NCBI RefSeq assembly: GCF_029873635.1
Contig: NC_080422.1
Coordinates: 15,035,936 to 15,099,935 of the forward strand
Direction of reading: 5' to 3'
Source: Malania oleifera
Taxonomy: Eukaryota; Streptophyta; Magnoliopsida; Santalales; Ximeniaceae
Length of the DNA stretch: 64,000 bases
The notes beneath the pieces are model-generated. The model did not search any database. It had not been told where the DNA came from and saw nothing but the letters and a program-made list of their open reading frames with translations. Position numbers and translations under genes: made by a program. Shown here one piece after another: positions 6,996 to 64,000 of the stretch. Positions within the stretch are counted from its first letter, which is position 1. Each line of letters opens with the position of its first letter.

Positions 6996-7031
6996 TTTAT
7001 ATAGCTTCTAATTAAGATTTGCTATAACTCT

Positions 7032-13880: not shown

Positions 13881-15382
13881 CGCCACGTGTCATTTCCATA
13901 AAAAATATATTATTTAATATATTTAAAAAAAAATGATAAATCAGGAAATAAATTATTCTGCGTAATAAATTATTTCCCAATTTATTACACAGAAGAATTT
14001 ATTACGCAGAATAATTTTTTTAAAATATATATTTTCATATTAAATATATAGATAAATATATATTTTTTTTAACAAATCTCAAAATTTTAAAATATAGATT
14101 TTTATATTTTTCACTAATTCTCTAAGGCACTATTTTCTGTTTAAAATTTTAAATTAAAGCGATTCACATATTATTTTGGATACCACAATTTAATTTTTAA
14201 AAATTGCTAACAAATGATCTTAGTTTGAATGTCTTGTTGATAATTAGGCGTAATTATATTTAATAAATAATAAATTAACAAAATGTAAAGAGAATTATTT
14301 AGAGTTTGAAATGATTTTTATTTACCGTCCCGCGACAAATTCCCAAAATTGTCACCGATTTTCTCTCTTCTCTAGGAAATTGTCACCGATTTTTCTCCTT
14401 TCTCAGCCAAAAATTTATTTTTTTTAATTTCTTTTATTTATTATATTTTCTGGGTATTTACACCCAATTTTATACCTTTTTTATATGTATATTCAAAATA
14501 TTTTTTACAAAAAGCTAAATTTTTATAACTTTTTAAAATTTTAAATATTAGAAAATAAAAAATATTTTCCACAACTAAGCAAGTCTTTAACATTTTTTTT
14601 TTTCATCTCTTATAATAAAGATAATCCATCTTTACTTTGAATAATAAATGTATACATAATTATCATATCTTAATTTTCTCTCTTTTTTTTTTTATTAATT
14701 GAACAAAACAATAAGTGGAAACACCTAGAAGTAGTCTTAGAAAGAGTATCCCACATAATTAGAATCCACAAATAAATACATTAATTACACAAATCTTTGA
14801 CTTAAGAATATTTAACCTCAAAAAAGTCAACACACTTTTTTTTTTTCTATTTCTTAAAAAAAATCAACTTTTTACTTTGATTTTTTCTATTCATCGATCA
14901 TAAAAAATCAGTTAATAATTAAAATAAAAAATTATATTTGGGAATTTGAATTCGAGAGTCAAATTTAAATTTGAGTAAAATTATAAAAAAAATATTCATT
15001 TTTTTGTACAAATACATAAAAATCATATTTATAATTTAAATTTCAAACTCTAAATATATATTATTATTTTTAAATATTTTTTAAAAATGAATAATATTTT
15101 TGAACGTTATATTTTTTGTCCCTTTAACAAACTGTCAATATATATATATATATATTAATTTCAGGTACAATTAAAATTGGTAATTTAAAATAAAGTTCAA
15201 AATTTTAATTTATTATACAATAAATTCTTTTAATATATTTTTTTAAAATGATAAATCGGGAAATAAATTATTCTGCGTAATAAATTATTTCCAGATTTAT
15301 AATACAGAATAATTTATTTCCCAAATTTTTATTTTTTTTAAAAATATATTAAATAATTTTTTTATGGAAATGACACGTGGCA

Positions 15383-15442
15383 AATCTCGCTACTTCAAGT
15401 AGCGAGATTTGTTTAAATCTCGCTACTCCAAGTAGCGAGATT
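15383..15442. repeat. Twin 27 bp hairpins in right TIR
   Basis: Mirror image of the left pair: 15383-15409 and 15416-15442, with the same 12 bp stems and loops tca and cca. Preceded by tgacacgtggca. It lies about 210-270 bp upstream of the LEA_2 start codon. Confidence 0.9.
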
Positions 15443-15651
15443 ACGTCAGGGTTATTCCGAGAAATATTTTCTCGAAAAAGGTATTATTTAATATATTTAA
15501 AAAATAAAAGGTTAAAACCGGAAAAAACTCCAAACAAAGGTGTTGAGTTGCAAACAGGCAAATCGATTGACCATAGTAACCTTTACCTTCAACTTCACCT
15601 CCATCCCCAGTCACCTCAAACCCCACACCCAACTTCTTCGCGTGCATCTCC

Positions 15652-30491: not shown

Positions 30492-31659
30492 TGATATGTT
30501 TAGAAATATAAAAATAATAATAATAACGAAAAATAATAATAAATAAGTAAATTATTTATTATTTAAAATTAAATTGAATAATAAATTAATTAATTAATTA
30601 ATAAGAATTATGAATTAAGCAATATATATATATATAAAGGTTAAAAGTTATTATTATTATTATTATTATATTATTAAATATATATGTTTACCTGAAGCTT
30701 CAAGATAGCAAAGCTCCATCCCCTGGTATTTCTCAGGTTCTGTCTCGCCTCTCTCTGCTCTCTCTTCCATTTTCTTCAATTTCTCGACTAATTTTTGTCC
30801 AATTGAAAATCAGAAAATACTACTGGACTCCATTTTCCGCCACCACCATTTCTACCAGAGCGGATTTATCGTAGGAGCGGCGTAGGCATATCTCCTAGGG
30901 TAAGCTAAATTCTCACTCTTACCCAATTTCTCGTAAATCTTAAACCTAATTGACGATTGGATACCACCACGAGAATCTAGGAATGATTCTCTACAAGTCT
31001 AGTGGAACAAATTTCTCGTGGGATCGTCATAGGCATAACCCCAAAATTAGGATAAGCAGGTTATTAAGGGGCTAATTATTATTTAATTAATAAAGATTTA
31101 GAAATTCTAAAATATTGGGCATTTTGAGGATGAATTTGGGTTGTTGAATTTAGGACTCGGGTAAGTGTCGCGGGTGTAATTTCGAGACCCTGCAGGCATA
31201 GTTCAGGAAACCATGTAAGGGTGTTAAATATTACTTTAAATGTTAATTTGGAGTATATGGAACATAGAGAAGGTTATATGGGTATTATTTTAGGAAATGA
31301 GTTAATTAATTTTGGAAAAACGCAAATTATAGGATTTGAGTTACGGGCGCCAAGGGTGTAGGATCTAGGTTTTAACGAGACTCTCAGTAAGTTAGGTAAG
31401 GGGAATAAATTATAACAGTATTTTTAGAACTACAGTTTGAATTGATATGTGAAAAATGAGCATATGATATTTTTTCTGAAAATTATTATGATATAAATAT
31501 CAGATAAATAGTGTGGCATTTGAGTAATATTGAATTGTGATATTTTAGAATATGAAATATGATTATAAAAATATTTTCTATAATAAATGGGGAAATATGA
31601 GAATATGATTTGTATTATTAAAAAGTGTGGAAATTCATGAAATAAGTTATATATATTGT
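30492..31659 (+). mobile_element. Gypsy LTR fragment (family C / window-start type)
   Basis: Blocks match LTR C ('atttctaccagagcggattt' and gtaggagcggcgtaggcat near 30850; compare 3090-3125), then the LTR at the window start (gatataaatatcagataaat near 31490). It is collinear with these LTRs but stops where a family B LTR begins. No coding sequence. Confidence 0.65.
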
Positions 31660-32046
31660 AACGAACCGAAAAATAAAAGTATTTAAATAATAAAGAGTGA
31701 GAGAAATGGAAACAGTAACAGAAGGAGGCAGCTGAAGCGTTCGTCGACGACGTTGCACTTTGGGATATAATGACACAAGAGAATTTATCAGGTCCCTGTC
31801 GACGAGAAGATACTGGGAGAGGATTTATGGAAGTTTAAAATTCGTCGATGAGAGTGTAGGTTCATTGACGAACTTTCTACATGACTCGTCAACGTGGTGA
31901 CGTGTTTCGTCGATGAATCCAGCTCTATAAATAGCTGAAACTTAGTTTTTTACGCAGCAAATTCACATAAACTCTCACTCTCTCCTCTCTCTACTGTCCT
32001 TCCCTCTTCTCTTTTCGATTTCGGTCCCGTTAGTTGCGGAGAGCAA
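31660..32046 (+). mobile_element. Gypsy family B LTR, 5' fragment
   Basis: It begins TGTAACGAACCG and continues with 'gtatttaaataataaagag', matching the start of the LTRs at 48047 and 59221. It has the tcgtcgacga-type repeats (31740-31915) and TATAAATA at 31926-31933. It stops at the junction with the Athila-like LTR. Confidence 0.75.
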
Positions 32047-34919: not shown

Positions 34920-36029
34920 TTGGTTGTATATGTTGAAGTAGGGATTGGTTGTGGCAGCAACAACACAGCAGGATGAGAGGGGCAGCAGGAACTCTTGGGT
35001 CCAGCTGCAGCAGGGGAACAACAGGGGCTCTTGGGTCCTTGTGGCAGCAATAGCAACCATGGTGTCCATTAGCAGTAGCAGCTGTGGTTTCCAGTAGTAG
35101 CTTCGGGTATGGCAAGACAGCAGCAAGGAGAAAGGAGAGAGGGAAAAAGTAAGAAGGGAAGAGGAAAGGGAGACCGAGAGGGAGAGGAAAGAGAGGAGAG
35201 GGAGAAGAGAGTTAGAGAAACAGAGGAGAGAAGGGACAACAGGTTCTTCTTCTGCAGGCAGCAATATGAAGAAGAAGAAGAAGAAACAGCAACTCGACAG
35301 TGGTGGCACCAGCGGCGGCTATGGTAGGGGCAACAAGCACGAAAAAGGAGAAGGAAGAGGAAATGGAGAAAGAAAGGAAGGGAGATCTGAAGAGGGAGAG
35401 AGAAGAGAAGGGAAGAGGAGGGAGGAGAGCCGAAGGAGAAAAGAAAAGGCAAAGGGACCGAAAGGGAGGGAAAGGAGAAGAGAGGAGAGAAGTAAGGAAG
35501 AGGGTGCGGGTGAGAAGGAGAATGGAAAGAAAAATATAAAGGGAGAAGGGGAGGGCTAGCCCTATGCCATCGCACGGAGGAGAGTATAGACCCAGCTGCA
35601 TGGCCTGGTTTGCAGCCGGGTCAAATCAGGTAATTTATTTATTTTTTCTTTTTTTTTCTTGTTTCTTCTTTTTTTTTGTTTCCCAATGATCAAGCCCACT
35701 TTTGTCCATCTTGGAGCTCATATCGCTTGAAACTTAAAATATGAAAGTTGTAGATAATCTTCTCATCTTTTTTTAAAATTTTGAATTGTCTCGATTGGAA
35801 TTGGAATGAAAAAATTATGCGCGAATTACAAAGCAGTGCTGATTTTAGCTCCCAATAATTGTCTTGCGATAAAAAATACCAAAAATTCATAAATTACTCA
35901 ATAAAACTCAAATATTATAAATATGAGACCGTACTAAAATATTGAGAGTAATTAGGTATTTAATTAAAAATATAAGTCTTATTGCATGAATTAAAGTACT
36001 TAATTGCACAGTTTAAGCGCGTAATCACA
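34064..36029 (-). mobile_element. Athila/Tat-like 5' LTR (about 1.97 kb)
   Basis: On the minus strand it starts TGTGATTACGCGC at about 36029 and ends gagtgagtca at 34064, just before the tRNA-Asp primer site. A pyrimidine-rich segment with a (TC)n tract (34852-34916) makes many long open frames of Ser/Leu repeats that are not genes. The outer end lies in the tandem repeats of a CACTA element. Confidence 0.75.
34852..34916. repeat. (GA)n microsatellite
   Basis: A 65 bp GA/TC run with one interruption, within the LTR. Confidence 0.95.
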
Positions 36030-37375
36030 AACAAACATAGCAAACTTAATGGATTTTAGCACTCAGGTGTCCAAGTTGGGCATATAAGGTCCAAACAGAG
36101 TGGGGTCAGTCCTAAAACATCTGTGACATTGAGATGGACGTGTTGGAGCTAACGGTGCCCAAAAACTCCTCCCGAAGAGCTTTTTGCACACCTAAAAGCC
36201 AAGTTGGAATACAAACAAACTTAGTAAACTTAGTGGATTTAAGCACTCAAGTATCAAATTAGGGTATACGAGGTCCAAACCGAGTGGGGTTAGTTCTGAC
36301 ACATCAGTGACATTGAGCTTGACATGCAGAGTTGATAGTGCCCAAAAACTCCTCTCCAATTGAAAATTTGGTGCTTAGAGGTGAACTTAGTAAACTTAGT
36401 TGATTTTAAGCACTTAGGTGTTCAATTCGAGCATATGAGGTCCAAACTTAGTGGGGTCAATTCCGACACATTCGTCACATGCCGATGGACGTTACAGAGC
36501 TGATAGTGCCCAAAAACTCCTCTCGGGAGGTTTTTGAGCCCTTAGAAGTAAAGTTAGAATACAAACAAACTTAGCAAACTTAATGGATTTAAGAATTCAG
36601 GTGTCCAAGTTGGACATACAAAGTCCAAACTGAGTGGGGTCAGTCCTCACACATCTATGACATTGAGCTTAACGTGCCGGAGTTGACGATGCCCAAAAAC
36701 TCCTCTCCGATTGAAAATTATGCACTTAGAGGCAAACTTACTAAACTTATTTGATTTTAAGCACTCGAGTATCCAATTCAGGCATACGAGGTACAAACCT
36801 AGTGGGGTCAATTCTGACACATCCATCACATGGTGTTGAACGTTCCAGAGCTAACGGTGCCCAAAAATTTCTCTCGAGAGGTTTTTGAGCCTTTAGAAGT
36901 AAAGTTAGAATACAAACAAACTTGGCAAACTTAGTGGATTTAAGCACTTAGGTGTCCAAGTTGGGCATATGAGGTCCAAACTGAGGGGGGTCAGTCCTGA
37001 CATGTCCGTGACATTGAGTTGGACGTGGTGGAGCTGATGGTGCTAAAAACTCCTCCTCGGGAGTTTTTTGCATACATAGAAGCAAATGTAGAATACAAAC
37101 AAACTTAGTAAACTTAGTGGATTTAAGCACTCAGGTGTCCAAGTAAGACATATGATGTCCAAACCAAGTGGGGTCAGTCCCGACTTAGTGACATTGAGCT
37201 TGAAGCGCCGGAGCTAATGGTGCCCAAAAACTCCTCCCCTTGAGCTTTTTGTGCACTTAGAGGCAAATTTAGAATAAAAACAAATTTAGAAAATTTAGTG
37301 ATTTAAGCACTCAGGTGTCCAAGTCGGGCATGCGAGGTAGCCACGGAGTGGGGTTAACTCTGATTGATCAAACGT
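36030..37375 (+). repeat. 184/166 bp tandem array inside the CACTA element
   Basis: Eight units share 'aaacttagtggatttaagca', 'ggcatatgaggtccaaac', gagtggggtcagtcc and tgcccaaaaactcctc. The aaactt anchors lie at 36042, 36226, 36392, 36576, 36743, 36927, 37110 and 37291, so spacing runs 184, 166, 184, 167, 184, 183, 181. Two unit types alternate in the first part, with different text around the ctctccaattgaaaat versus ctctcgggaggtttt segment. Confidence 0.85.
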
Positions 37376-41500: not shown

Positions 41501-42775
41501 TGTTAATTTAGGTTTAATCCCATGAGGGGGGTGAATTGAGTATTTAAAAATATTTTAGTATTTCAATCCTTAATTGAAAACCCAACCATACATTCACAAA
41601 TTTGGATATATGTCAATTTTAGTATTTTGCACTTAAATTGATTTACTTAGTGGATATCTCAATTAATTAAGTATTATCCAATTATTCTTACGTATTTTAG
41701 ATATTCATATATATCAATATTTAACACATGCATATCAGATATAATATGAATACAAGTGCGGAAATATAAAGATATAGAGAGAGAGCACAGACACCGAATT
41801 TCTAATGAGGTTTGGACAAACTCGGCCTACATCCTCGCCTTGGGAAAACCCCCCCCCAAGGATTCCACTAATCCCACTCCTTTAATTAGGACAGAGCTTC
41901 TCGTTACAAAGTCGCTGCTTACAAGAGGTACAATTTCCTCCTTCTCGGTTCACAACTCGAACCGTCAATACAATAGATTGATGAAATTCCTAAACACTCA
42001 AATGCTTCTGAACAAGCTAATGATTGCTGATTGTAAGTAGTTATATTTGATTCTTGGGTTTAATCATGTATTTATAGATAGAAAAAGTATTATTTCGTAT
42101 TCCCGAAGTTGCTTAGAGTGTTTCTCAAGTTTTTACTTTGTTTGGGAGCCAAGAAAAACACTTTTGGAAACTTTTTCTTCGCTATTAAAAAGTAGTAGTT
42201 ACAAAAGTTAGTCGACTGGGCTTATCAGTGTTAGTCGCTCAGGCTTTGATTTTAAGTGAAAAATCAAAGTCAAAATGGGGTCAGTCGCCTGGATAGTTAG
42301 AGATTCATACTTTTATGTTTGTTTCCAAAACTTTTGCCAAATTATTTTGAGACTTTTGAAAATATTTTTCGGGGTTTTCAAAATTTGGTCTCTAAGTTAG
42401 TAATAAAACCCAGTGAGCTTCAATGCATCCATATTGACTTTAAATGAAGTACTTACATAAGACTTCCTTAAGACTTAAAAACTTTCTAAACACGAAGTCT
42501 TCATGTATGTCTTTGCTCTCAGTATCTTCATGTATTTGTTTTGCTTTCAATATCTTCATGTATTTGCTTTGACTTCCTTCATAGTTCATTGTCTTAAGTG
42601 CATACTTCATCAAATTCTTCTAGCTATAAGTACAAACTTTCAATAGACTTTTCAAGCACTTGACCTTGGTCTTTTATCAACACTATTGAGTCCTAAAACT
42701 TCACTTAACCAAATATGTTAAGTTCCTTTGCTTTGTTATCATTGAAACAAGATTCTAAGCCTTATGAGGTCAACA
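41501..42775 (-). mobile_element. Ty1/copia LTR, no internal region
   Basis: On the minus strand it begins TGTTGACCTCATAAGGC at 42775 and runs to about 41501. Layout matches the LTR at 7046-9167: a 'caatgataacaaagc' start block, TATA at 42069-42076, GTCGAC motifs about 135 bp upstream of TATA (42211-42290), and a ggggggtgaattg block near the 3' end. No primer site or coding region adjoins it and no clean 5 bp duplication was seen, so it is a solo or rearranged LTR. Confidence 0.7.
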
Positions 42776-48046: not shown

Positions 48047-50009
48047 TGTAGTGACCCGAAGAATAATGGTATTTAAATAATAAAGAGTGTGAGAAATGGA
48101 AACAGTAACAGAAGGAGGAAACCAACTTTCGTCAACGACATTGCATTTTGGAGGTGATAATTTCAAGAAATTTCCCAAACCTCGTCGACGAACACAGGGG
48201 TTTCGTCGACAAGGGTTCTTCAGGATCTCATAGACGAGGTCCCGTCTCGTCGACGAGAAGATATCGAGAGATGACTTTTGGTAGTTTGAAATTCATCGAT
48301 GAGGGTGCAGGTTCGTCGATGAACTTTCTACAGGACTCGTCAACGAGGTGACGTGACTCGTCGACGAATCCCACAGTATAAATAGTGCTTAAACTCAGTT
48401 TTTACATAGAAATTTCAGCGAAGACTCTCTCTCTACGGTCCCTCTCCCATTTTTCTTTGATTTCGGCCTTGTTAGCCGCCGGATCGACAATCTGAGGCCA
48501 CCACGACACTCCTGGCGGAGTTCTCTTCAAGTCTGCTGGGGCGGATCGTCGGTGAGATCGAGTCGAGTTTCTTCCCTGAATCAGGGTAAGACCTTTTAGT
48601 CAATTTTTGGCCTTATGGCAGTTGTAGGAAATGATATAGGCAAAGAAATATTGATATTCTGTTCTGGCGAATGTTGTTTTCAGGGTGTTGTGCAGGAAGC
48701 CCTGCGGGGGTAGGACCAGTATACGATAAGGGTTTTTTAATAGTCAGGTAAGGGAAATATGCTATGTTAGGAAAATTTAGTATGATTTTCAGTATAGTAT
48801 ATATATTTATTTATACCAAATTATTATTCATAGTCGGAATTAATACAATTTATCCATTATGTATAATATATTTTAAATTATTGTGTGGCTTGAGAATATA
48901 GATATAGTACAGAGACATACTTTATAGTATTTTTTTAGAGCTATGTTTTACAGATTATACAGACAATGAATATGTTTTATAATAATTACAAAACACCATG
49001 ATTATATTGTTGATACAGATACAGTTTACAGTACCATGACGTATAGTTTTACAGTTTATTTCAGAAAATACAGTTGATACAGATACAGTTTATCATAACG
49101 TTATAGTTTATATAGTTATTACAGAATCATAGTAAAACAGATAGTTGTATATAGAGATGTATTATATAGTATCAGACCCTGTTGGACCATTACAAATTAC
49201 AGAGCACGGTACTGTTGCTATATACAGTATATAGAGTGCAACCACCTATTCAGATAATACGTGGTATAACAGTCGATCGTATAGAGCCCACGAGTGGATA
49301 GGCTCCCCATCAGATATGGGTTGAGGAGGGCTGATCATACTGATGGAGTATAGTGGTTTATCCTGGTCGGCCAGCTAGGGTAGATCCCACTTACGGGCCG
49401 CACAACCCTATCATGAGGGGTTAAATCATGACACAGTTATCCACAGGGAAGTTTTCAATTATTACTAGAAGTATTTTGAGTAGAAACCTAAAGTACAGAA
49501 ATGTTAAACAACAAGAAAAAGGTGATGGTTTATATTACTGGTATTGTATTTACAAATTCAATGATACACGATTATATAGTAATAGATTTTCATAGTATTG
49601 TAACTCATTTGCCACACACTAGCAATAGCATATTTCGTCTTACCGAGCGTTGGCTCATCCCATTACTTTAATATTTTTCAAGTGATCCAGGTAGGTGAGC
49701 AGATTAGGCTCACAGATAGAGGGGCCTCAGTATTGCCCTGACAGTATAGTGAGTATTTTTGGGAGTAATTTTGTATAGCCCTGGCCAGTTGAGGGTATTT
49801 TGGGAAACAGTCATATATGTATATTTTGGGAAATATTTTAGCACTCTAGTATTGTATATAATTATATATGGTTATATTTATTTGATTTCCGTTTCTTGCT
49901 GCTTAGGTTGATGGTTGGGTTTAATCCATTTTGGTATCAGAGCATTGTAAATTTTACAGTATATATATAAAAAATAAAAAAAACCCAAGTTAAATAGCAG
50001 GGTTTTACA
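48047..50009 (+). mobile_element. 5' LTR of Tekay/Del-like gypsy element B (1963 bp)
   Basis: It starts TGTAGTGACCC and ends GGTTTTACA. The preceding 5 bp ccttg (48042-48046) match ccctg after the 3' LTR in four of five positions. U3 holds tcgtcgacga-type repeats (48130-48370) directly before TATAAATA at 48377-48384. A primer-site-like tggtatcagagc occurs inside the LTR (49932-49943) as well as after it (50013-50024). By eye it is roughly 90% or more identical to the LTR at 59221; no date was computed. Confidence 0.9.
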
Positions 50010-50012
50010 ATT

Positions 50013-50024
50013 TGGTATCAGAGC
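50013..50024 (+). other. tRNA-iMet primer binding site of element B
   Basis: tggtatcagagc three bases after the LTR end. Confidence 0.9.
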
Positions 50025-52110
50025 CTAAGTTGTTAGGTTCTGTAGACTTTAGAGTGTAGCGGAAGTAATATCAGAGTAAATGACTTAAGGTTTGTTTAGT
50101 GGTCTGGGTACAGGATTACCGTGGTGGTTTCTGTGTTTTTCCTGGGGTGACGATTTCAGGAAAACCATGGTAAACTATTATCGAGTCGTGTGTCTAAGTG
50201 ACAGAACTGGAGATTGAGTTAAGGTCAAGGAAGATAGTTAATTTTGAATTGGTATAGGATATGTTTGTATAGAAGATAAGGTGCTTAAATGTGTTTCTCG
50301 TTTCAGGATGGACTTGAGAAGCAATGGTACGAATGCTGGGGAGGATAGGCCAGGACCTTCCAGCATAGGTGGAGGAGATACAGATGTTGTGCTGCGCAGT
50401 GTCACTCAACACGTGATGACTGAGATGGCTAGGGGCTCTAGGGAGCGTGGCTGTTCGATCGAGTAATTTATGCGGATGAAGCCCTCATCCTTTGTTAGAG
50501 GAGATGACCCGATTGTAGCTGAGAATTGGATCCATGGCATCAAAGAGACGTTGGCAGTGCTTCCTTGTTCGGATGAGCAGAAGGTAGTATTTGTAACATT
50601 TAAGTTGACAAGGGAGGCGAAGCACTGGTGGAGATCAGCGCAATTGATAAATGAGCAGAGGCCGATTCCAGTATAAGTCACATGGGACCGATTCAAGGAG
50701 CTATTCTTCGAGCGGTATTTCCCTGCTATCGTTCGGAGCGTGAAGGCAGCAGAGTTTATGCACTTGGTACAAAGGCAGATGTCGGTATCCTAGTACGTGG
50801 CTCGGTTTATCAAGTTGTCACGTTTTGCTCCACATCTAGCACCTGATAAAGAGAAAAAGGTCAGGAAGTTTGAAGAGGGATTGAGACAGAACTTGTTTGA
50901 GCAGGTGATTAGCTTCAGAGCTCAAACATTTACGGAGGTTATTGACAAAGTTGCGATCATTGAGAGTGGTATACAGAGGGGTATAGCGGCTCAGAGTCAG
51001 AGGAAGAGGCCTACGCGTCAGAGCTTTCAAGTTGGCTCCAGTAGGGGTCAATGGAGAGGAGGTAGCAATAAGGGAGATTAGAGGTAGATGGCAGGACCTT
51101 GGAGGAATCAGAGTGCGCCGATCGTCCTGGTATGTCGAACGTGCAGGAGACGTCTTTTGGGGGAGTGCCGGGTACGGACAGATGTATGCTATCAATGTGG
51201 AAGACCCGACCACATGGCACGTGCATGCCCAAGACTGCCAGAGCAGGTCCCAACTCCCAGGCCCTATCGGGGAGGATATCAAGCACCTCATGGAGGACAG
51301 CAGAGGCATGTGGCCTCGACGAGGGTTTACGCATTGACGTTCGGTGATGCAAAGGCTGCCGCGGATGTGGTGACAGGTACTTTTACTGTTTTGTCATATT
51401 TTGTTATTGTTTTATTTGATTCAGGTGCTACTCATTCATTTGTCTCTGCATTGTACGTTAAATTATCTGAAAGTGAGACTCAGTTATTAAATAGAGAACT
51501 GTCAATAGCTACACCATCAGGGTTAGTGTTAAGGTGTAAAAGGGTACTCAGAGACTATCCAATAGAAATTTATGGGAAAGTGCTACTAGCGGACCTAATT
51601 GTGTTTGAGATGTGCGGGTTTGATGTAATACTGGGTGTGGATTGGTTTACTGTTAATCACGTCAGTATTGATTGTCATCATAAGGAAGTAATTTTCAGAC
51701 CCCTTGGTGAACAAGAATTCAGGTTTGTTGGTTCGCGTGTACATGCTCCGTTGCAAATAGTATCAATTGTACAGGTAAGCATATTACTTTGGTATGGAAG
51801 TTAGGGGTTTGTGGCTTTTGTAAATGAAGTGTCAGAAAATGAAGTGAAGCTTAACAGTACCCTAGTCGTACGAGAATTTCCAAATGTTTTTCCAGAGGAG
51901 CTACCAGGATTGCCTCCTGAATGTGAGGTGGATTTTCCTATAGAATTGCCTCCAGGGACAACGCCGATCTCTAAGGTTCCTTACCATATGACTCTAGTTG
52001 AATTAGGAGAATTGAAGAACCAGTTGCAAGATTTGCTGAATATGGGATTTATACGACCCAGTGTATCACCATGGGGAGTTCCAGTATTGTTTGTAAAGAA
52101 GAAAGACCAA
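50025..52110 (+). mobile_element. Element B: leader, gag, protease and start of RT
   Basis: The parts are in the usual order: gag (about 50305-51080; recognisable by KHWWRSAQLI and FERYFPAIVR-like words), a CCHC zinc knuckle with CYQCGRPDHMARAC (51187-51228), an aspartic protease with DSGATHSF (about 51418-51441), and the beginning of reverse transcriptase ([11 protein letters not shown], then [20 protein letters not shown]). These are typical of plant chromoviruses of the Tekay/Del group. The coding region is broken in several places, so this copy is a fossil. Confidence 0.85.
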
Positions 52111-53303
52111 TCAAAATATTACAACTTTCATTCACAACAGTATTGGGATAAGATCAGTCGGCTAAGATTTGAAAATTTTTATTTGAGTTATATGCGTGCA
52201 TAAGACATAGTTATATAAACTTTTGAAACTTGATTCCACTCAAAAAAAGGTATAATGTTAAAAAGGGTGCTTCACTTTGTTGGCAATTCATTTGTTTTCT
52301 TATATATTGTTATTCATTTTTTTTTTAAATGGTATACGGTGATGTTGGTAGCTACTTTTTTAGTTGTTGGTTGGTTGGTTGGTTGGTTTGTTGTTGGATG
52401 CCATGTGCCTTAGAGTACTTTGGTTTTATTTTCCTATAATCTACTTATTGTTTTGTTTTGCTATAATCTACCTATTGTTAGCTTAGTTTTGTTATATTTA
52501 ATACATTTAAAAATAATACCATAGTAAAGAAAAAGTTATAAAAGTTCATGATAAATATTAATGTCCATCCAGTCCCACATCGTCTCTGTGAGCAGTTCCA
52601 AAACCAGTATAAGATTCTCTTAACTCTCTCTCCTTAACACTTAGGTTTTGAGGATGAGTTCTCTAACGTGGTGTCAGAGTAGGGCCTTGAACTGCTTAGC
52701 TCCTCCGTGGGCTGGACTTTTCCTCGCCTCATTTCCCCCATGGGCTCAAGGGGGAGTATTAATCCTCTTAGCTCTCTCTCCTTAACACTTAGGTTTTGAG
52801 GATGAGTTCTCTAATAATAAATGATTAATGACAATAATTATACATCTGTTAGAGGATTTGAGAAGAAAAATTTTAATTTTTTTGTGCTCAAAATATTCTT
52901 AACTTCAAAAAATATAAAAAGAGTATGAAACAAAAGATGAATAATTTCTCGTTGTCTAATCAAAGCTCAACAACTAAGAGAATTTTGAAGTTATCACTAA
53001 AGATGTGCTCAACAAAACTAAATTTAAAGAATAAACCAAATGCAGACATTGTTTTAATACTAAATAAAATAAAAAGCAACAAAAGATTGTAATGTTCCCT
53101 TTTAGGTTTTAATTAATGTGGTCTATTTCTTGAATAATGTACCAAGTCATAAACTTGGAGTTGTAGTCTTTATTTTATTTTATCATATTTTTCTTCACCA
53201 ACATACAACCTAAATGGATCTCACGAACTTGTTTTGTTTTTTAATGCCACAAAAAATTACACTAATGTCACTAAAATTATAACAAGAATGTAATTTTAGA
53301 GTT

Positions 53304-53570
53304 TGTTGTAAAACATGTATATTTATGTGGATGACTATTTAGATAATAGGTTATAACCTTTGGTATGCCCACATAATGGTTCATTATGTGGTTAACTTTT
53401 GGAATGCCAATGTATTTGTCTATATAAGGATGTATTTGTCTATATAAGGACATGTTTACAATAAAATGAGATAATAAGATGATTAACAACATCTAGTTCC
53501 TAAAGAACTAGACTGTTAAATTTTTATAACTTTAAATTTTTTTGTATTCTTCTTTATTTCATTAACAACA
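53304..53570 (+). mobile_element. 267 bp solo LTR (TRIM-like)
   Basis: Starts TGTTGTAAAACATG and ends TTAACAACA, flanked by gagtt on both sides (53299-53303, 53571-53575). The paralogous site at about 22700 is empty (gttagagtttgacattttc). It contains ctatataagg (TATA-like, in a 20 bp tandem duplication, 53412-53450) and aataaaa. The size fits a short LTR of a TRIM or small copia element. Confidence 0.85.
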
Positions 53571-53699
53571 GAGTTGACATTTTCTTAACTTTTAGATATA
53601 TGAAAAGACATCTATGGTGACATTAAATTAGACATCACCAATCTTAACTTTTAGTACCCACTTAAACTTCACAACATAGCCCTAGTTGTCATTAAAAGA

Positions 53700-53965
53700 A
53701 TTTAAAAAAAAAAATTGACATATGCAGATATTTGATAAAAAGATAGGGATATTGCTAAGATTTCAAAAATCTCAGTGATCTTTTTTACGATTTTAAAAAT
53801 GTTACAAATCTCTCCTAAAAATTGTCAAAATATCCTTAAAAGACTTGTCTTTTTGTAAAATATAGGAACATATTTGTGTCTTTTTGACAAATCTTTAAAA
53901 AAGTCTTTAAACTTCTTGAAACCTTAGGTAAAGTTTTTAAAATTTTTTAAATCTCTCATAAGTAA
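53700..53965. mobile_element. Fold-back MITE, copy d (incomplete)
   Basis: The paralogue of copy b (22834-23146) within the duplicated segment; its right arm is replaced by the MULE-like piece at about 53966. Confidence 0.6.
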
Positions 53966-53984
53966 TTTTTTGTTTGCCTTAAAA

Positions 53985-54495
53985 ATATACAAATATTTGT
54001 ATATTGATCACCCGTAATGCATATTGATCAAGATCAATATGCATTACGAGTGACCACAAGATATCCTATGCGAGGGTTTAATGATACAGTCCTCTATGAG
54101 TTTGTTTATGTAACTGATGATTATGGTCTGCACATTGTGTTGGATGCACACTGCATATGTTTGACATATTTAACTGTGCAGTTATATGTCGAAACCAATC
54201 CTCAAATTGGTGTTGCCCCTTCTGACTCTGCTGCCACCCCATCGATGTCATACCTATTAGACGACATTCTCAATGCGGAGGAGGCGGATGCACCGGTCAT
54301 GCCACCTCGTTCTCGTTCAGAGCCATTATATGTGTTATCTTCCCATTCGCTTCGCATGGATGTCGATTATGTAGTACCTCTTGGCAGAGATGCTGAACAT
54401 ACAGGACGACGACGAGACAGGACACCAAATGCAGATGAGCAGCCAAGAGAGGGCAGACACAGACGACAGCCACCCCGAAACTAAAGACGACCTGC
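53985..54495 (+). pseudogene. MULE-like coding fragment, copy 2
   Basis: This is the open copy of the fragment at 11125-11625, giving a frame of 155 codons (54017-54484): DQYALRVTTRYPMRGFND, DDYGLHIVLDAHC, VQLYVETNP, then an acidic linker and an Arg-rich end QPPRN. The apparent start codon lies in a 36 bp palindrome that is not in copy 1, so it is probably not a natural start. There is no transposase core. As for copy 1, the resemblance to the N-terminal domain of MuDR-type transposases is tentative. Confidence 0.5.
54013..54048. repeat. Perfect 36 bp palindrome
   Basis: Arms cgtaatgcatattgatc and gatcaatatgcattacg (17 bp each) surround a 2 bp centre. Copy 1 near 11150-11190 has only one arm. 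Confidence 0.95.
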
Positions 54496-54744
54496 ATGTG
54501 ATACTGAGTAGTCTTTTTTGATTTCGAGTGTATAGCATCGATTATGTTTATTTCATTTGTATAGGATTGATTATTTCTATTTCATTTGTATAACATCGAT
54601 TATTTTTTTTCGTTTGTATAGCATCATTCATTAATTTTCTCCAGCATGTATATGTGAATGAAAGTATTGTATGACTGTTGTGAATGAAATTTGTAAATAA
54701 ATATTGTGACCATACTGATATTCCTAATTAAAATTATTTTCTTG

Positions 54745-56458
54745 GGACTAGTAGGTTATTACCGTCAATTTGTGGAGGAATTTTTGGCTTTATTAGGACC
54801 ACTCACACGGTTAACCAGGAAAAATGTCAGATTTGTGTGAGATGAAGAATGCGAGCAAAGTTTCCAAGAACTAAAGCAGCGGCTCATCACTGCACCAGTA
54901 CTGACGATTCCATCAGGAGGTGATGGGTATGTGATTTACAGTGATGCGTCTTTGAAAGGGTTTGGTTGTGTACTAATGCAGCATGGTAGGGTGGTGGTGT
55001 ATGCGGCCAAGAAGTTGAAAGAGTATGAAAAGAACTACCCTACTCACAATCTAGAATTAGCTGCGGTTGTACATGCACTAAAGATTTAGAGACATTACTT
55101 ATATGGTGAGAGATGTGAAATATTCTCTGACCATAAGAGTTTAAAGTATTTCTTTACACAGAAAGAGTTAAATATGCGGTAAAGGAGGTGGTTAGAACTC
55201 ATCAAAGATTACGACTGTACCATCAGTTACCACTCAAGTAAAGCAAATATGGTTGCTGATGCTTTGAGCCGTAAACAGAAAATACAGCATAACTAGCTGC
55301 AGTAGTTCAACACCCAATTTAGATGGACTTGGAAAGACTCGGCGTGGAGTTAGTGGAAGATGATCCTCAGGCGCTTATTGTCAGTTTGGTTATACAACCT
55401 ACACTTTATGAGAGAATTAAAGCTGCTCAAAGGAATGATCCAGAATTGGCAGAAGTGATAGGCAGAATACAGGATGGTCAGGGGGAAGAATTTAGCATTT
55501 CTGACGATGGGGCTCTGAGATTTTGCACCAAATTGTGTGCGCCTGCAGATGACAGTATCAGGAGGATGATTCTAGAAGAGGCACACAGATCTCTATACAC
55601 AGTCCATCCTGGCAGTACGAAAATGTATAGGGATCTGCGGGAGTATTTCTGGTGGAGTGGCATGAAAAGGGAAATAGTAGAGTTTGTGCGGTAGTGTTTG
55701 ACGTGCCAGCAGGTTAAGGCTGAGCACTAGAGGCTGGTTGGTCAATTGCAGCCACTTTTCATTTTTGAGTGGAAGTGGGACCACGTATCCATGGATTTTG
55801 TTACTGGGCTACCGCCGGCGCCGCATGGTCAGAATTTCATTTGGGTGGTGATTGATAGATTGACGAAGACAACTCACTTTCTGCCCATTAAGATTAGCTA
55901 CCCTATTAACAGGTTAGCAAAGATTTACATGGAGAAGATTATTTGACCCCATGGAGTGCCAATATCCACGTCTCGAACCGTGATCCACGTTCACATCGCA
56001 GTTGTGGAGGAGTTTGCAGGAGGCACTAGGGACTCAGCTAGCATTCAGCACCGCTTTCCATCCTCAGACTGACGGTCAGACAGAGAGAACGATTCAGGTA
56101 CTTGAGGATATGTTGCGAGCTTGTGTATTGGATTTTGGAGGTAGCTAGACTCAGTATATGTCATTGGTGGAATTTGCTTACAATAACAGCTACCAGGCTA
56201 ACATTGGCATGACTCCTTATGAGACACTTTATACCAGAAAGTGTCGTTCCCTTTTATACTGGAGTGAGCTGGGTGAGAGGCGAATTTTGGGGCCAGAGAT
56301 AGTTCAGCAGACGTATAATAAAGTCTAACTCATTCGAGATCGAATCAGTGTAGCACAGAGTCGGCAGAAAAGCTACGCAGATACTCGCCGCCGGGAACTG
56401 GAATTTGTAGTGGTGATCATGTATTTCTGAAAATAGCACTGCTGAAAGGAATCATGAG
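54745..56458 (+). mobile_element. Element B: RT end, RNase H and integrase
   Basis: Recognisable parts in order: LGLVGYYRQFVEEF (end of RT), RNase H (IYSDASLKGFGCVLMQ and YPTHNLELAAVVHALK), the integrase zinc-binding region (HRSLYTVHPG, 'YFWWSGMKREI', CLTCQQ) and the integrase core ([28 protein letters not shown]-like). All are standard Ty3/gypsy. The region carries several breaks and is not functional. Confidence 0.88.
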
Positions 56459-58588
56459 TGTTAGCTTTACCGTGATCCCAAGAGAGGGGGTAAATTGGTA
56501 TTTTTAAATTTTACCTCCTAGGTATTCCTTTCTAACAACAGTATGTTCACAAGCCTAGGGTCAATCTAATGCAATTAATGTAAATATACCTGAAATTAAA
56601 TAAGGCAGTTTAAACAATCATATAAGCACTAGAAAGCAGTAAAGAGAGGATGACACAGAGATATGTTATCGAGGTTCGGCCAACTGCCTACGTCCCCGCC
56701 TTGGCTAACCAGCACAAGGATTATCACAATACCTTGCTCACTTAAACGGGTGGAGCGGCACCTATACAAACCAGGTCAAATTAACACAGGGCTGACCTCA
56801 ACCTTTACACCAATCCTTACCGGGCTGGATTACCGCCCCCTCAGGCCACGCCTGGAATCACTTAGATATACAATCAAAGGTACAATACAAGAGTACTTTC
56901 ACGTAAAGCAGATTTGTACCACAAATGCGCACAAACACAAACACCACAGATGATTTAAAATGTAAGCTCTGTGTGGTCTAAATATGTCAACTCTCAACAA
57001 TGTTTTCTATCTGTGTAGCAAGTACGTGAGAGAGTGTCAATAATAATCTGTGTACTTCATAATATTCAGTCAAGAGTGTTCACACAGAATATCAAACAAG
57101 CCTCAATATTATCAATCAATAGAATGCGTATATGCTTGGATTGCAAAAAGGATAATCTTTGTTTTCAGCAAATGATATATATACTTGTATAAATAATACC
57201 ACAAAGATTGATATATCACACACACGAATATCTTTTCACAAATATATCAATATGAGCACCACAAGATATTCGGTAATATTTGAAAGTATTTTTGCAATCT
57301 CCAAACAAAAACGAACTTCCTAAGATATTGCAACGAGAATGCAATACTTGGGATGTCACAACAAGTCTTTCTTAGGGCAGGCTTATTGGCAAAGCCTCCT
57401 AAGAAAACTTAGGTTATGCTCTCAAAAATCGATTCAAATATGCAACAATATGGAGAGCTAACCTTTAAGTAAAAGTACTCAATACACTTACAAATGATTT
57501 AGATGAATGAAGAGTGTAAGCTTGAGTAGGTTTCAAAAGAAGTGTGAGTAATGAGAGGCAAAAATGAGTATTTTGGCTTGAGAGAAATTTTGTTAATCTT
57601 TTTGCTAATCCGTGCTTAAATCACCAAATGAAGGAGTATATATAGACATACTAAAAATTTTGACCGTTGGGGACTTATTAGGGATTTTTGGAAAAGATTA
57701 ATGACACTTAAGATAATTTAACCCTGTTTAAAAAATTATTAACCGCGGTAAAAATAGGAGCAACCCGAGAGGTCCGGTCGACCAAAAGTGTTTCGGTCGA
57801 CCGGGACTCAAGTAGCTCGGTCGACCGGGGGCATTTTGAACTGAGTGGTCGGTCGACCGGGAAAGGGCGATTTTCAAAAATACCGAGGTTCGGTCGACCG
57901 GGGCCTTTTTGAACTACAGGGCTCGGTCGACCAGGTTGTTGGGAATTCTCCCAAGACCCCTCGGTCGACCAGGTAGATGTAGTACAAATATGGTCGGTCG
58001 ACCGGGAGGTCAAAAAGTTGACTCCCAGGCGGTTCGTCGACCGAGGTTAAATGACCTATAAGGGCTCGGTCGACCGGGCCTGGGTCAAACAGTTGACCCA
58101 GACCGGTTTCGATCGACCGGGCCAAATTGAACTGAGTTGGCCGGTCGACCGAAAGTGCACCAAATGTGCATTTCGGTCCCTTCTTGCAACATTCAAACCC
58201 TATTCAAGTGCCTATTACATACAAGTGCAAAAGTGAGTGTCCTAAGGTCACTTGGGTCCAATTTGGAAACACCGAAAAACTCCGGTGTCGGTCGACCTTC
58301 GGTCGACCGATGGTTCACCCTAAGGTCTTTCTATGGTTCGGTTTGAGCTTGCAAATTAAATCATGCATGTGATGTGTGTGAGCTTATTACAAACCGAAAA
58401 CCCTTATTACAGATAAATTTCATTTAAAAAACTATTACAATTAAGAGTATAAAATTGTCTTCAAGTCTTTAAGCTTTTCACGTGCCACTGAAGATATGCT
58501 AATATGAACCTGCACATGAACTAGATATTTATTAAATACAATTGTATTTGTCATTATCAAAACCAGGGTGTGACTTATAAGGTCAACA
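56459..58588 (-). mobile_element. Solo Ty1/copia LTR (2130 bp) inserted in element B
   Basis: Its ends are tgttagctttacc (56459) and aaggtcaaca (58588), that is TG...CA. The perfect 5 bp duplication atgag lies at 56454-56458 and 58589-58593. On the minus strand the start TGTTGACCTTATAAG followed by 'tgataatgacaaatac' is like the other copia LTRs. TATA is at 57637-57644, with a GGTCGACC array (57775-58310) about 130 bp upstream. It lies inside the integrase region, so it is younger than element B. Confidence 0.92.
57775..58310. repeat. GGTCGACC palindrome array
   Basis: About 14 copies of cggtcgaccg-like palindromes (some with one change) at 18-45 bp spacing, separated by non-repetitive or weakly repeated text such as ttgaactgag. 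Located in U3 of the solo LTR. Confidence 0.9.
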
Positions 58589-58593
58589 ATGAG

Positions 58594-59220
58594 GTTTGGG
58601 AAGAAGGGTAAGTTGAGCCCTAGGTTCATTGGCCCATTTGAGATACTCAAGAAGATTGGGTCAGTTGCCTATGTGTTGGCTTTACCGCCATCTCCATTCA
58701 GAATTCACAACGTGTTTCACATTTCTATGTTAAGAAAATACGTCCCATATCATCAACTATGCAGAATTGGAACTTAGTGGTGACCTAGCATATGAGGAAG
58801 TTCCAGTACAGATCCTAGATAGAAAAGAACAGGAATTGTGCAATAAAAAAATACCACTAGTAAAAGACCTGTGGAGGAATCACGCGATAAAAAAAGTCTC
58901 GTGGGAGCTTGAAAATGAGATCAGACAGAAATATCCCCACTTATTCAGTGAATACAGCAGTGATATATGATTCAAGTAATAGTAATTTTATTTTGTTTAA
59001 CATAGTGGAATTGTAATGTAGTGTATAAGATAGGTAGTATTCTGGTTTTAGAAGAATTTTCTTTTATACTTGTAATCTCCCAGAACTACCCATGTAACCA
59101 CGATATTCCTCTGCCATAAGTGAGGGCAGGTAATAAAATAAGTAGACCGTTTTGCCTTTAAGGGATGATAAGCGACATGAATAGTAAATTTCGAGGACGA
59201 AATTTATAAGGAGAGGAGAA
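58594..59220 (+). mobile_element. Element B: integrase C-terminus to polypurine tract
   Basis: The frame continues after the solo [23 protein letters not shown], '[15 protein letters not shown]', then VPVQILDRKEQELCNKKIPL and KKVSWELENEIRQKYPHLF, the typical GPF/Y and C-terminal region of Tekay/Del chromoviruses. After the coding part come gaggacgaaatttataagg and the purine tract ggagaggagaa directly before the 3' LTR. Confidence 0.85.
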
Positions 59221-59886
59221 TGTAGTGACCCAAAGAATAATGGTATTTAAATAATAAAGAGGGAGAGAAATGGAAACAGCAACAGAAGGATGAAAGTTCT
59301 TCAGGATCTTGTAGATGAGGTCCCGTCTCGTCGATGAGAAGATACCAAGAGAGGACTTTTGGTAGTCTGAAATTCATCGACAAGGGTGCAGGTTCGTCGA
59401 TGAATTTTCTACAAGACTCATCGACGAGGTGACATGGCTCGTCGATGAACCCCACAGTATAAATAGTGCTTAAATGCAGTTTTTACGCAGAAATTTCAGC
59501 GAAGACTCTCTCTCTCCCCTCTCTATGGTCTCTCTCCCATTTTTCTTCGATTTCAGCCCCATTAGCCGCTGGATCGACAATATGACGCCACCACGATGCT
59601 CCTGGCGAAGTTCTCTTCAAGTCTGCTAGGGCGGATTGTCGGTGGAATCGAGTCGAATTTCTTTCCAAAATCAGGGTAAGACATTTTAGTCAAATTTTGA
59701 CCTTCTGACAGTTCTAGGAAATGATATAGGTAAAGAAATATTGATATTATGTTCTAGCGAATGTTGTTTTCTGGGTGTCGTGTAGAAAGCCCTACGGGGG
59801 TAGGATCGGTATACAATAAGGGCTTTTTAATTGTCAGATAAGGGAAATATGCTATGTTAGGAAAATTTAGTATGATTTTCAGTGTA

Positions 59887-59931
<45 letters not shown>

Positions 59932-60723
59932 TATATATATTTATACTATATTATTATTCCCAACAGGAATTAATACAGTTTATCCATTATGTATAATATA
60001 TTTTAAATTACTGTGTGGCTTGAGAATATAGATATAGTACAGAGACATTCTTTACAATATTTTTCAAAGTTATGTTTTACAGATTATACAGATAGTGAAT
60101 ATGTTTTATAGTAATTACAAAATACCATGATTATATAGTTGATACAGATACAGTTTACAGTACCATGACGTATAGTTTTACAGTTTATTTCAGGAAAAAT
60201 ACAGTTGATACAGATACAGTTTATCACAGCGTCATGGTTTATATAATTATTACAGAATCATGGTAAGACAGATAGTTGTATATAGAGATGTGTTATATAA
60301 TATCAGACCTTGTTGGACCCTTACAGATTACAGAGCACGGTATTGTTACTATATACAGTATATAGAGTACAACCACCTATTCAGATAATAAGTGGTATAA
60401 CAGTCGATCGTATAAAGCCCATGAGTGGACAGGCTCCCCATCAGATATGGGTTGAGGAGGGCTGATCAGACTGACGGAGTATAGTGGTTTATCCTAGTCG
60501 GCCAGCCAGGGTAGATCCCGCCAACGGGCCGCACAACCCTATCATGAGGGGTTAAATCATGACAGACTAACGGAGTATAGTGGTTTATCCTAGTCGGCCA
60601 GCCAGGGTAGATCCCGCCAACGGGCCGCACAACCCTATCATGAGGGGTTAAATCATGACACATAGTTATGCACAGGGAAGTTTTCAGTTATTACTATGTT
60701 TATACAGATTTACAGAGACAGAA

Positions 60724-60761
<38 letters not shown>

Positions 60762-61302
60762 GTATTTTGAGTAGAAACCTAAAGTACAGAAATGTTAAGC
60801 AACAAGAAAAAGGTGATGGTTTATATTACTGGTATTGTATTTACAAATTCAGTGATACACGATTATATAGTAATAGATTTTCATAGTATTGTAACTCATT
60901 TGCCATACACTAGTAATAGCATATTTCGTCTTACCGAGCGTTGGCTCATCCCATTACTTTAACATTTTTCAGGTGATCCAGGTAGGCGAGTAGATCAGGC
61001 TCGCAAATAGAGGGGCCTCAGTATTGCCCTGACAGTAGAGTGAGTATTTTTGGGAGTAATTTTGTATAGTCGTGGCCAATTGAGGGTATTTTGGGAAATA
61101 GTCATATATGTATATTTTGGGAAACATTTTAGCACTCTGGTATTGTATATAATTATATATGATTATTTTTATTTGATTTCCACTTCTCACTGCTTAGGTT
61201 GATGGTTGGGTTTAATCTAGTTTGGTATCAGAGCATTGTAAATTTTGTAGTATAAAAAAAAAATTAAAAAAAAAAACCCAAGTTAAATAGCAGGTCTTTA
61301 CA
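59221..61302 (+). mobile_element. 3' LTR of element B (2082 bp)
   Basis: It starts TGTAGTGACCC and ends CAGGTCTTTACA, and is followed by ccctg. It has the same layout as the 5' LTR, with TATAAATA at 59459-59466 and an internal tggtatcagagc at 61223-61234. It differs by a 96 bp tandem duplication (60469-60660) and longer (TA)n tracts (59888-59940, 60728-60756). Confidence 0.9.
60469..60660 (+). repeat. 96 bp tandem duplication in the 3' LTR only
   Basis: Two almost identical 96 bp units (starting gactgacggag at 60469 and gactaacggag at 60565). The 5' LTR has a single unit near 49337-49435, so the duplication arose after insertion. Confidence 0.92.
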
Positions 61303-61988: not shown

Positions 61989-64000
61989 TGCAGAGACCAG
62001 AAGAATTATAGTATTTAAATAATAAAAGAGGTAGAAAAACGAAAATTTAAAAAAAAATAAAAAATCAGGGTTTGTCGACGAATACCCTATTAAATTCGTC
62101 GCATGTCATGTGTCTCGTCAATGAGAAATTACCGAAAAGGCTGTTGCAGGGTCTGAAATTCATCGGCGATAAATAAGTGTTCATCGACGAACTCTCTTCT
62201 TGGCCTCGTCAACAAAGTGACGTGTCTCATCGATGAAGTCAAGTGTTTAAATAGCTCATACTTGGGTTTTCAGCGAGTTTTCTGCATGCAACTTTCCTCT
62301 CTCTCACTAAAATCGTCCTTTACTCCTTCTCTTTTCAATTTCGGCCCGGTTCTTTGCTAGATCGACAATATGAAGCTGCCACGCTACTCCTGGAAAGTTT
62401 CTCTTCATTTCTACAGGAGTAGATCAATGGTTAGGCTAACTTGGGAACCATCTCAAAATTTGGGTAAGTTAGTTAATTTTAGTTTTATTAGGTATTTAGA
62501 GTTTCTGGACTGAGGAAAATATGTTAGTGTAAATAATACTGAAGTTTTGTTGAGGAAAATTTAAATATCAGGGTGTTGTGCTGGGAACACTGCAAGTGTA
62601 GGATTGGATGTTTTGTGGGCTTCTCAGTAAGTCAGGTAAAGGGATAAACTAAGAATTTTTCATGAAATTATTTATTATTTTACAACATTAAATTTCAGGA
62701 AAATATGTATATTATATAATTATGTTTGGGAAATACTGCTATGAACAGGGATATGATTTAAACATGTTTTATCAGAAAATATGGTTTTGGGGATAGATTT
62801 TACACTCAAGAGGTGACCCATTTCTATGTGGCATGAGTTTAAATTTCCATATAATTATGTATGTTAGAATATTATGTTTTCCCAAATCAAGCATGATATG
62901 ATAGTTTTCAGAGATATTATAAAATAATACAGGAACCATGATTTTATTATTATAATATTAAACAGTAAAAAGAAATTATGTTTAGTATATTATAATATGC
63001 CGATGCAGATGTCGTGATTCATGTTATGTTATGTCGGTGCAAATGTTGTGATTCATGTTATGTTATGCCGGCGCAGATGTCGTGATTCATGTTGGCGCAG
63101 ATGCCATAATCATGTATGACAAGGCAGAATTGATGAAATATTATCATGTCAGATATTATTATGAAATACGAAACAACTATGTTCAGTATAGGAAACTTAT
63201 TATATGATATCAGAACTCGGATGACATGGTTTAGTTCAGTTTCAGGAGCACACTACCGTAGTTGTATGTTTAGAATGATAGTGCTACCACACGACCAATA
63301 GTGTGGGAGATGACAGTCGATATGACTTCAATGTAGAGTGGAGTTGTTCCCCTAGTAGTTCGAGACCAGGTCGGACAGGCCCATCGTACTTACAGACTTA
63401 TGTGTGATCTAGTATGGTCGACCAGCCATTACTAGCTCCCGCCTTCGAACTGCACAACCTAGTCATGTGGGGGTAAGATTGACATCAACTAACTATCCAT
63501 CCTGAATGTTATTTCAGTATTGTACAGTTATATAAGATGATTTTCATGTTAGTAATTTAGTATGTTATATTATGTTATGAGGAATCATGTTTTATTCAGG
63601 TATGATATCAAAGAGTTTTTACCAGATATGATGTATGTACTGATAATATGTATAACACGAAAACACTCATGTTGCCACACACTAATATTAGTTTATTTCC
63701 CTTAGTGAGAGGTGTCTCACCCCAATTATATAAACATTTTAGGAAATCCAGGCAGAGGAGCAGAAAGAGCTCCGCAACGGTAGAGTCCGACTGAGCTACC
63801 CTATCAGAAGGGTGAGTTGTAGAGTCAGAGTTGGATTTATTTTTGGGAAGGGACCCTAGGCTACTTTTAATCTTTTGTGGATGATTGTATATATATATAC
63901 AACAGTTTTAGTAGGACTCTGGTATTATGATTGGTTGTATGGTATGTTGTAAAATTTTGTTTCCTGCTTCTTAGGTATCAAAGTTGTATTTTGGGTATAT
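61989..64000 (+). mobile_element. Family B-related gypsy LTR, runs off the window
   Basis: Starts TGCAGAGACCAGAAGAAT, a relative of the family B LTR start. It carries gtcgacga-type repeats (62075-62240) upstream of a weak TATA (gtttaaatagc), the atttgggtaagttag block, and the 'ttttaggaaatccaggcag' block near 63740. It has its own tandem repeat at 63000-63110. The end is outside the window. Confidence 0.75.
63000..63110 (+). repeat. About 38 bp tandem repeat in the LTR
   Basis: Three to four units of gccgatgcagatgtcgtg and attcatgttatgttat, the last one shortened. Confidence 0.85.

Follow-up and report, generated by a model that had tools for sequence, protein, structure and literature searches.

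Arrays of palindromic boxes upstream of the TATA box in Sirevirus and Ty3/gypsy long terminal repeats of Malania oleifera as candidate promoter sites

The closest described system is the repeated motif (RM) of Sirevirus retrotransposons, which belong to Ty1/copia. In passages of Bousios et al. 2010 (PMC2829016) the RM is described as palindromic, present at least eight times per element, CpG-rich and, for the most part, located in the upper half of the long terminal repeat (LTR), upstream of the TATA box, with a CGG-CCG core in all but one element; Table 3 of that paper gives CGGTCGACCG as the RM of a Vitis Sirevirus. The same passages list as Sirevirus features a C-rich signal close to the end of the LTR, the junction CA-ATTGG-TATCAGAGC and a conserved TATA box after the array. 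There the RM is called Sirevirus-specific and absent from classic retrotransposons, the comparison set being Ty1/copia, and as of 2010 no single RM-binding factor is reported as identified. We analysed a stretch of 64,000 nucleotides of Malania oleifera (contig NC_080422.1, positions 15,035,936 to 15,099,935 of the forward strand; hereafter the window), which is rich in degraded LTR retrotransposons. A preliminary description had noted palindromes centred on GTCGAC upstream of TATA boxes in three copia LTRs (a solo LTR, copia1 and copia2) and in four LTRs of a gypsy family called family B (B1 to B4). The coordinates given there held (Table 1). Genome-wide counts below refer to the 1.494-Gb genome.

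We propose, with a probability of roughly 0.6, that the arrays are lineage-specific palindromic sites for dimeric factors in the upstream promoter of LTR retrotransposons. Proteins would bind the boxes and activate transcription, and the factors would differ between the lineages. The Sirevirus half of this picture is already known and the gypsy arrays are the new part. In the open-access literature searched, no description of such boxes came up for Ty3/gypsy LTRs, most subscription papers being outside the search.

The family B array was analysed in aligned copies. A 401-bp U3 query returned 10,499 first-look candidates genome-wide; 40 of them were scored and 30 loci, including B1, were kept. 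Together with B2, B3 and B4 these made an alignment of 33 copies. Comparisons of A/T columns and CpGs with the LTR body used 30 copies. Slots were chosen where at least five copies had exact boxes. We observed nine U3 slots which carry the 10-bp palindrome TCGTCGACGA: one distal box, then two four-box modules with spacings of 21-25-19 and 20-24-21 bp, each 65 bp long from the first to the last box start. The two bases that flank the core on either side were symmetrically paired in the majority of copies, and this held for each of the nine slots. There were 289 boxes (297 slot cells minus 8 gaps), of which 110 had the exact six-base core, 163 differed by CpG transitions only and 16 were changed otherwise, so that 273 of the 289 were intact or changed at CpGs only. 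The symmetry of this 10-bp site suggests that the DNA-binding factor would be a dimer.

Outside CpGs the boxes varied little. In the 36 non-CpG box columns, all of them A/T, the mean minor fraction was 0.010 and no column had a variant in at least four copies, compared with 0.084 and 36 of 149 columns in the spacers (p = 2.8e-9). When the spacers were restricted to A/T columns, which is the fairer comparison, the values were 0.046 and 7 of 78. A/T columns of the boxes were also compared with those of the LTR body in the 30 copies (0.019 in 37 columns vs 0.103 in 864, p = 2.5e-13). Both p values are optimistic, because neither copies nor columns are independent. The spacing was constrained as well. 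Indels numbered 1.33 and 0.44 per 1000 copy-bases in the two modules, against 12.35 and 20.37 for the linkers; three parts of the LTR body had 3.54, 12.58 and 14.31. Fixed spacing within a module suggests that several dimers would sit in one ordered DNA complex.

A similar spacing series was found in five other box-bearing LTRs (L085-L089), which are about 65-75% alike to B1 along most of the aligned stretches, and in two LTRs for which no match to B1 was listed (L079 and, with gaps, L090). The L079 array was considered as a case of a copia element with TCGTCGACGA boxes and was rejected: the primer-binding site (PBS) there is that of a copia element (locus L019), and the array was taken for a neighbouring LTR fragment, because its TATA box is on the strand opposite to the copia PBS element. 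Neutral minisatellite expansion of a chance palindrome could also produce an array, and copia1 does resemble such a case, with a tandem repeat of about 73 bp that carries two units. This explanation seems to us highly improbable, as it is at odds with boxes and spacing that are constrained in family B while the spacers vary, and with module spacing that recurs in LTRs of only about 65-75% likeness.

The array was also tied to the TATA box. In 29 of the 33 family B copies the sequence TATAAATA came a short distance beyond the last box, and the family B array ended 9 bp before the TATA box, in agreement with the earlier statement that the array abuts the TATA box. TGACGTG, a bZIP-like site between the last two boxes, was exact in 21 of the 33 copies (29 when one-transition forms are included). 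In the whole genome, 4984 + 4766 places had TCGTCGACGA and TATAAATA 3-20 bp apart, compared with 1 + 2 for the control. The distal box, the two near-fixed four-box modules, TGACGTG and the TATA box 9 bp further on may act together as the upstream promoter. The claim of a promoter-upstream module in copia and gypsy LTRs that are not homologous is supported: the boxes of family B are constrained, regularly spaced and TATA-tied genome-wide.

Pairs of exact TCGTCGACGA boxes at a distance of 5-35 bp occurred at 28,616 places in the genome, while the reversed control gave none. Close pairs of CGGTCGACCG, the box of the solo LTR, occurred at 6,678 places (control 0), and the control palindrome TCGACGTCGA gave no pairs genome-wide. 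Among the first 100 listed TCGTCGACGA pairs the start-to-start distances were 19-21 bp (52 pairs), 24-26 bp (22) and 43-45 bp (26), and none of these 100 was at 22-23 or 27-42 bp. The 50 listed CGGTCGACCG places had distances of 32-33 bp (25), 40-43 bp (17) and 24 bp (4), with four others.

The preliminary description had stated that CpG-bearing palindromes persist in AT-rich surroundings. The ratio of observed to expected CpG was 1.5 in the array and 0.64 in the rest of the LTR. When only sites that had kept CG in at least 40% of copies were counted, transitions had changed 28.2% of CpG cells in the boxes (26 sites) and 30.0% elsewhere in the LTR (38 sites; 30 copies). Persistence in family B is not borne out by these values or by the 163 boxes with CpG transitions only. 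Once inserted, the family B boxes have no protection; what sets the array apart is the high CpG content with which it started. The boxes decay by transitions at about the rate of the other LTR CpGs, as expected of silenced and presumably methylated copies.

These values also bear on a proposal taken from the VANDAL transposons, in which a demethylating or anti-silencing factor would bind dense lineage-specific motifs and protect the element. The motifs here are short, dense, non-coding and element-specific, like the VANC targets in the part of PMC5735166 that describes them. Nevertheless, we consider anti-silencing landing sites very unlikely: the boxes of family B are palindromes set at nearly fixed distances, their CpGs are lost at about the pace seen elsewhere in the LTR, and Pfam showed only ordinary gypsy domains in the scanned parts of what is, admittedly, a degraded region.

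The solo LTR is a Sirevirus LTR, and its array is an already known feature because CGGTCGACCG equals the published Vitis motif. It is bounded by the target-site duplication ATGAG (56454-56458 and 58589-58593) and has the C-rich integrase signal near its 3' end (56490-56481, minus strand). There were 13 CGGTCGACCG-type boxes, the first about 280 bp into the LTR, and the earlier count of about 14 copies was correct when the one ATCGAC form is included. As a solo LTR it has no internal region, and two further Sirevirus features were found in a relative elsewhere in the genome, L070, which is 88.9% identical to it over 2173 bp. The L070 LTR is followed by ATTGG-TATCAGAGC, and after its PBS there are matches to Retrotran_gag_2 and zf-CCHC (locus L010), that is, a copia-type gag. 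The solo LTR was inserted into the family B gypsy element, within its integrase region, and the SH3_Tf2-1 match directly adjoins the solo LTR. When the solo LTR was compared with one other copy, non-CpG differences were 5/48 in boxes and 61/414 in spacers. The promoter role of the Sirevirus array, which would act as upstream promoter sites like the known RM, therefore leans on the published motif, its own constraint signal being weak. The Sirevirus spacers (58005-58100 and several places of CGGTCGACCG pairs in the genome) repeatedly contained inverted GGTCAA...TTGAC pairs, which we take to resemble back-to-back W-boxes.

The other two copia LTRs also had C-rich end signals of the Sirevirus type; the PBS junction was found in copia1 only, where the LTR is followed by ATTGG-TATCAGAG with one mismatch. 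Pfam found no domain beside copia1 (1-7040, minus strand) or in 9168-16167 of the same strand, the side away from where coding sequence would lie. Their unit is CAGKCGACTGAC, three of which were found in copia2. Pairs of CAGKCGACTGAC occurred at 118 + 126 places genome-wide (control 3 + 2). The GTCGAC core said to be shared by the copia LTRs holds for the solo LTR and in part for copia1 (3 of 10 units) and copia2 (1 of 3, at 42211). The distance from the TATA box to the nearest GTCGAC in the three copia LTRs, noted before as 131-135 bp, was measured as about 132-135 bp. We rejected the idea that three separate copia families converged on GTCGAC, since the ends of all three are of the Sirevirus type and the unit of copia1 and copia2 is a different one; as these are the end signals of one known lineage, their likeness is not convergence between lineages.

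Sirevirus-type LTRs elsewhere in the genome were sampled by way of ATTGGTATCAGAGC: of its 5185 + 5144 places, the 20 at the head of the listing, all on one contig (C1), were inspected over 2.7 kb each. This sequence is given as the Sirevirus junction, but the C-rich end signal was absent at 12 of the 20 places and present, as judged by eye, at 8. ATTGGTATCAGAGC alone is therefore no Sirevirus marker, because it often follows ends without the C-rich signal. Clusters of at least three palindromes, above 10 shuffles each, were found in four of the eight Sirevirus-type ends (L070, L068, L082 and L076) and not in the other four (L075, L078, L080 and L081); L080 adjoins family B LTR sequence. The L070 array consists of CGGTCGACCG and is plainly GTCGAC-centred. 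L068 has eleven TCAGACGTCTGA units within three mismatches, with a GACGTC centre, and shares spacings of about 22 and 50-51 bp with copia1; TCAGACGTCTGA pairs occurred at 275 places genome-wide (control 0). L082 and L076 have TCGG...CCGA arms with mixed centres, and some L076 boxes may be decayed GTCGAC. The pattern TCGGTNNACCGA (1,203 pairs) was tried as evidence for other centres and discarded, the matches listed being mostly TCGGTCGACCGA and CpG-decayed forms. Since another Sirevirus of this genome uses a GACGTC-centred box, GTCGAC is not a common Sirevirus signature.

GTCGAC itself was clearly enriched in the window, with 29 occurrences, whereas 30 dinucleotide shuffles gave 3.4 on average and never more than 8. 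Three copies lay beyond the seven LTR spans used, where 4.6 were expected from base composition; the spans of B3 and B4 were set wide, and each includes one GTCGAC outside the array (32574 and 63417). We then tested the exact GTCGAC count of each U3 against 1000 shuffles of that U3. The enrichment predicted earlier was confirmed for the solo LTR (13 upstream of TATA), B1 (4) and copia1 (3), whose counts were reached in none of the shuffles. It was weaker for B3 (2; 4/1000), copia2 (1; 26/1000) and B4 (1; 63/1000) and did not hold for B2, which had no exact copy. Exact GTCGAC is therefore not the basis of the claim for copia2, B2 and B4, as their U3 counts are only 1, 0 and 1. Copia2 and B2 were also missed by a cluster search requiring at least one perfect palindrome. 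When one CpG transition was allowed, there were 16 TCGTCGACGA matches in the window, all within the four family B LTRs, and 11 CGGTCGACCG matches, all within the solo LTR; six other CpG-bearing palindromes gave none there. The B2 boxes and most of those in B4 were seen only as CpG-decayed forms.

The common core raises the question whether one host transcription factor family reads GTCGAC in both copia and gypsy LTRs, the same activator having been recruited convergently. We find this doubtful. GTCGAC does lie inside both abundant boxes, whose genome-wide pairs far outnumber those of their controls and of TCGACGTCGA. On the other hand, the outer box bases are conserved in family B and differ between the lineages, so that the 10-bp unit is CGGTCGACCG in one and TCGTCGACGA in the other. 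The spacing rules differ too (32-33 and 40-43 bp in copia vs 19-21 and 24-26 bp in gypsy arrays), and among the eight sampled Sirevirus-type ends only one of the four array-bearing LTRs is plainly GTCGAC-centred. The GACGTC-centred and mixed Sirevirus arrays speak against a single factor that would recognise GTCGAC throughout, and the one host factor suggested in the preliminary description is not supported by this comparison.

The arrays may act as RNA instead, if U3 palindromes at the 3' end of the transcript pair and thereby serve the element or small-RNA silencing by the host. Folding was stronger than in shuffled sequences, the z value being -10.2 in the solo LTR's array with 100 shuffles and -4.1 in B1 with 200, and an excess of small RNAs maps to maize Sirevirus palindromes according to a section of PMC10760457. 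Any palindrome array folds well, however, and hairpins need neither near-fixed module spacing with free linkers nor a tie to the TATA box. As their spacing is constrained, the family B arrays help to separate DNA-site from RNA-hairpin explanations. We regard an RNA role as unlikely, yet it is a real rival, and it could hold together with the promoter role; such coexistence is also supposed in PMC10760457.

Several points weigh against the proposal that the arrays are promoter sites for dimeric factors. Binding and activation are inferred from sequence, and the weak Sirevirus constraint comes from two compared copies only. The family B copies were picked by likeness to B1 and have common ancestry, and choosing slots by exact boxes in at least five copies favours intact-looking columns. 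The body stretch beside the TATA box, with its indel rate of 3.54, exceeds the modules just about 3-8 times. No single helical period fitted the gypsy spacings (R 0.24-0.57); the fit was better for the Sirevirus spacings (R 0.66-0.75), though those pairs come from related copies. Finally, the strong folding of both arrays fits a rival.

The features of the window are collected in Table 1. The Pfam domains agree with the earlier assignment of family B to gypsy; no reverse-transcriptase or chromodomain model passed Pfam in the scanned, degraded parts of the element. In the B4 fragment (61989-62250) no TATAAATA was found. Self-comparison of the window also revealed a dense block of tandem repeats at 36023-37363, about 74-83% alike.

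Table 1. Positions of LTRs, box arrays and coding features in the window
Feature	Positions	Strand	Remarks
Solo Sirevirus (Ty1/copia) LTR	56459-58588	minus	ends, 5-bp target-site duplication, C-rich end signal
CGGTCGACCG box array of solo LTR	57775-58310	minus	13 exact GTCGAC and one ATCGAC
TATA box of solo LTR	57637-57645	minus	about 130 bp beyond the nearest box
Family B (Ty3/gypsy) 5' LTR, B1	48047-50009	plus	PBS 50013-50024
TCGTCGACGA box array of B1	48129-48367	plus	8 recognisable here, 9 slots in aligned copies
TGACGTG site between last two boxes, B1	48349-48355	plus	conserved TGACGTG(GC)
TATA box of B1	48377-48384	plus	9 bp after last box
Degraded gypsy coding region, family B	50590-58744	plus	interrupted by solo Sirevirus LTR
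Retrotrans_gag	50590-50889	plus	Pfam, family B
RVP_2	51310-51702	plus	Pfam, family B
RT_RNaseH	54928-55212	plus	Pfam, family B
Integrase_H2C2	55548-55721	plus	Pfam, family B
SH3_Tf2-1	58586-58744	plus	Pfam, family B
Family B 3' LTR, B2	59221-61302	plus	boxes 59328-59448 all CpG-decayed, none exact; TATA 59458-59465
Family B LTR fragment, B3	31657-32040	plus	boxes 31741-31916; TATA 31926-31933
Family B LTR fragment, B4	61989-62250	plus	boxes 62072-62236 mostly decayed
copia1 LTR with Sirevirus-type end signals	7046-9167	minus	C-rich signal 7071-7076; PBS 7032-7043 with one mismatch
copia1 array	8355-8679	minus	10 CAGKCGACTGAC-type units; spacings 22 and 50-51 bp; GTCGAC in 3/10
copia2 LTR	41501-42775	minus	Sirevirus-type C-rich end signal from 41526

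Palindrome arrays were previously regarded as Sirevirus-specific, and a gypsy lineage has a cleaner, rigidly spaced version of them in thousands of LTRs. A far-reaching reading, which we put forward tentatively and think rather unlikely, is that CpG-rich palindrome arrays arose independently in two unrelated superfamilies within one plant genome and are recognised by dimeric host factors that are identical or sisters, the gypsy form having become a rigid complex beside the promoter with two modules of four dimers each. If this were true, one unrecognised class of host factors would act on thousands of LTRs. The family B arrays offer a natural mutagenesis set and a defined bait, one 75-bp four-box module, for finding the factor.

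A symmetric activator element in a plant LTR is known from the U3 boxes of Tnt1, which is a copia element with a box different from those described here. Maize Sirevirus LTR palindromes and small RNAs are reportedly the subject of Bousios et al. 2016. Passages of PMC2829016 name the symmetric box I of Tnt1. VANC target arrays of VANDAL are similar to the present ones in that dense, short, lineage-specific motifs lie in non-coding transposon DNA; as far as PMC5735166 describes them in the relevant part, they differ from family B in belonging to a DNA transposon, in a motif of the same orientation, in changing copy number and in an element-encoded reader. Family B, with its palindromic boxes, near-fixed module spacing and ordinary gypsy domains only, is not an array of the VANC type. 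Maize Sirevirus palindromes resemble the arrays in their clustering in the regulatory part of the LTR and in strong folding (sections of PMC10760457 and PMC5311732), and according to the former, Ty3 elements taken together showed no obvious structure peak in maize. The Sirevirus RM, as described in passages of PMC2829016, is like the family B boxes, which are palindromic, many (nine, of 10 bp), CpG-rich and upstream of TATA. Unlike that motif, family B belongs to Ty3/gypsy, is without the CGG-CCG core, abuts the TATA box and is arranged in two near-fixed four-box modules.
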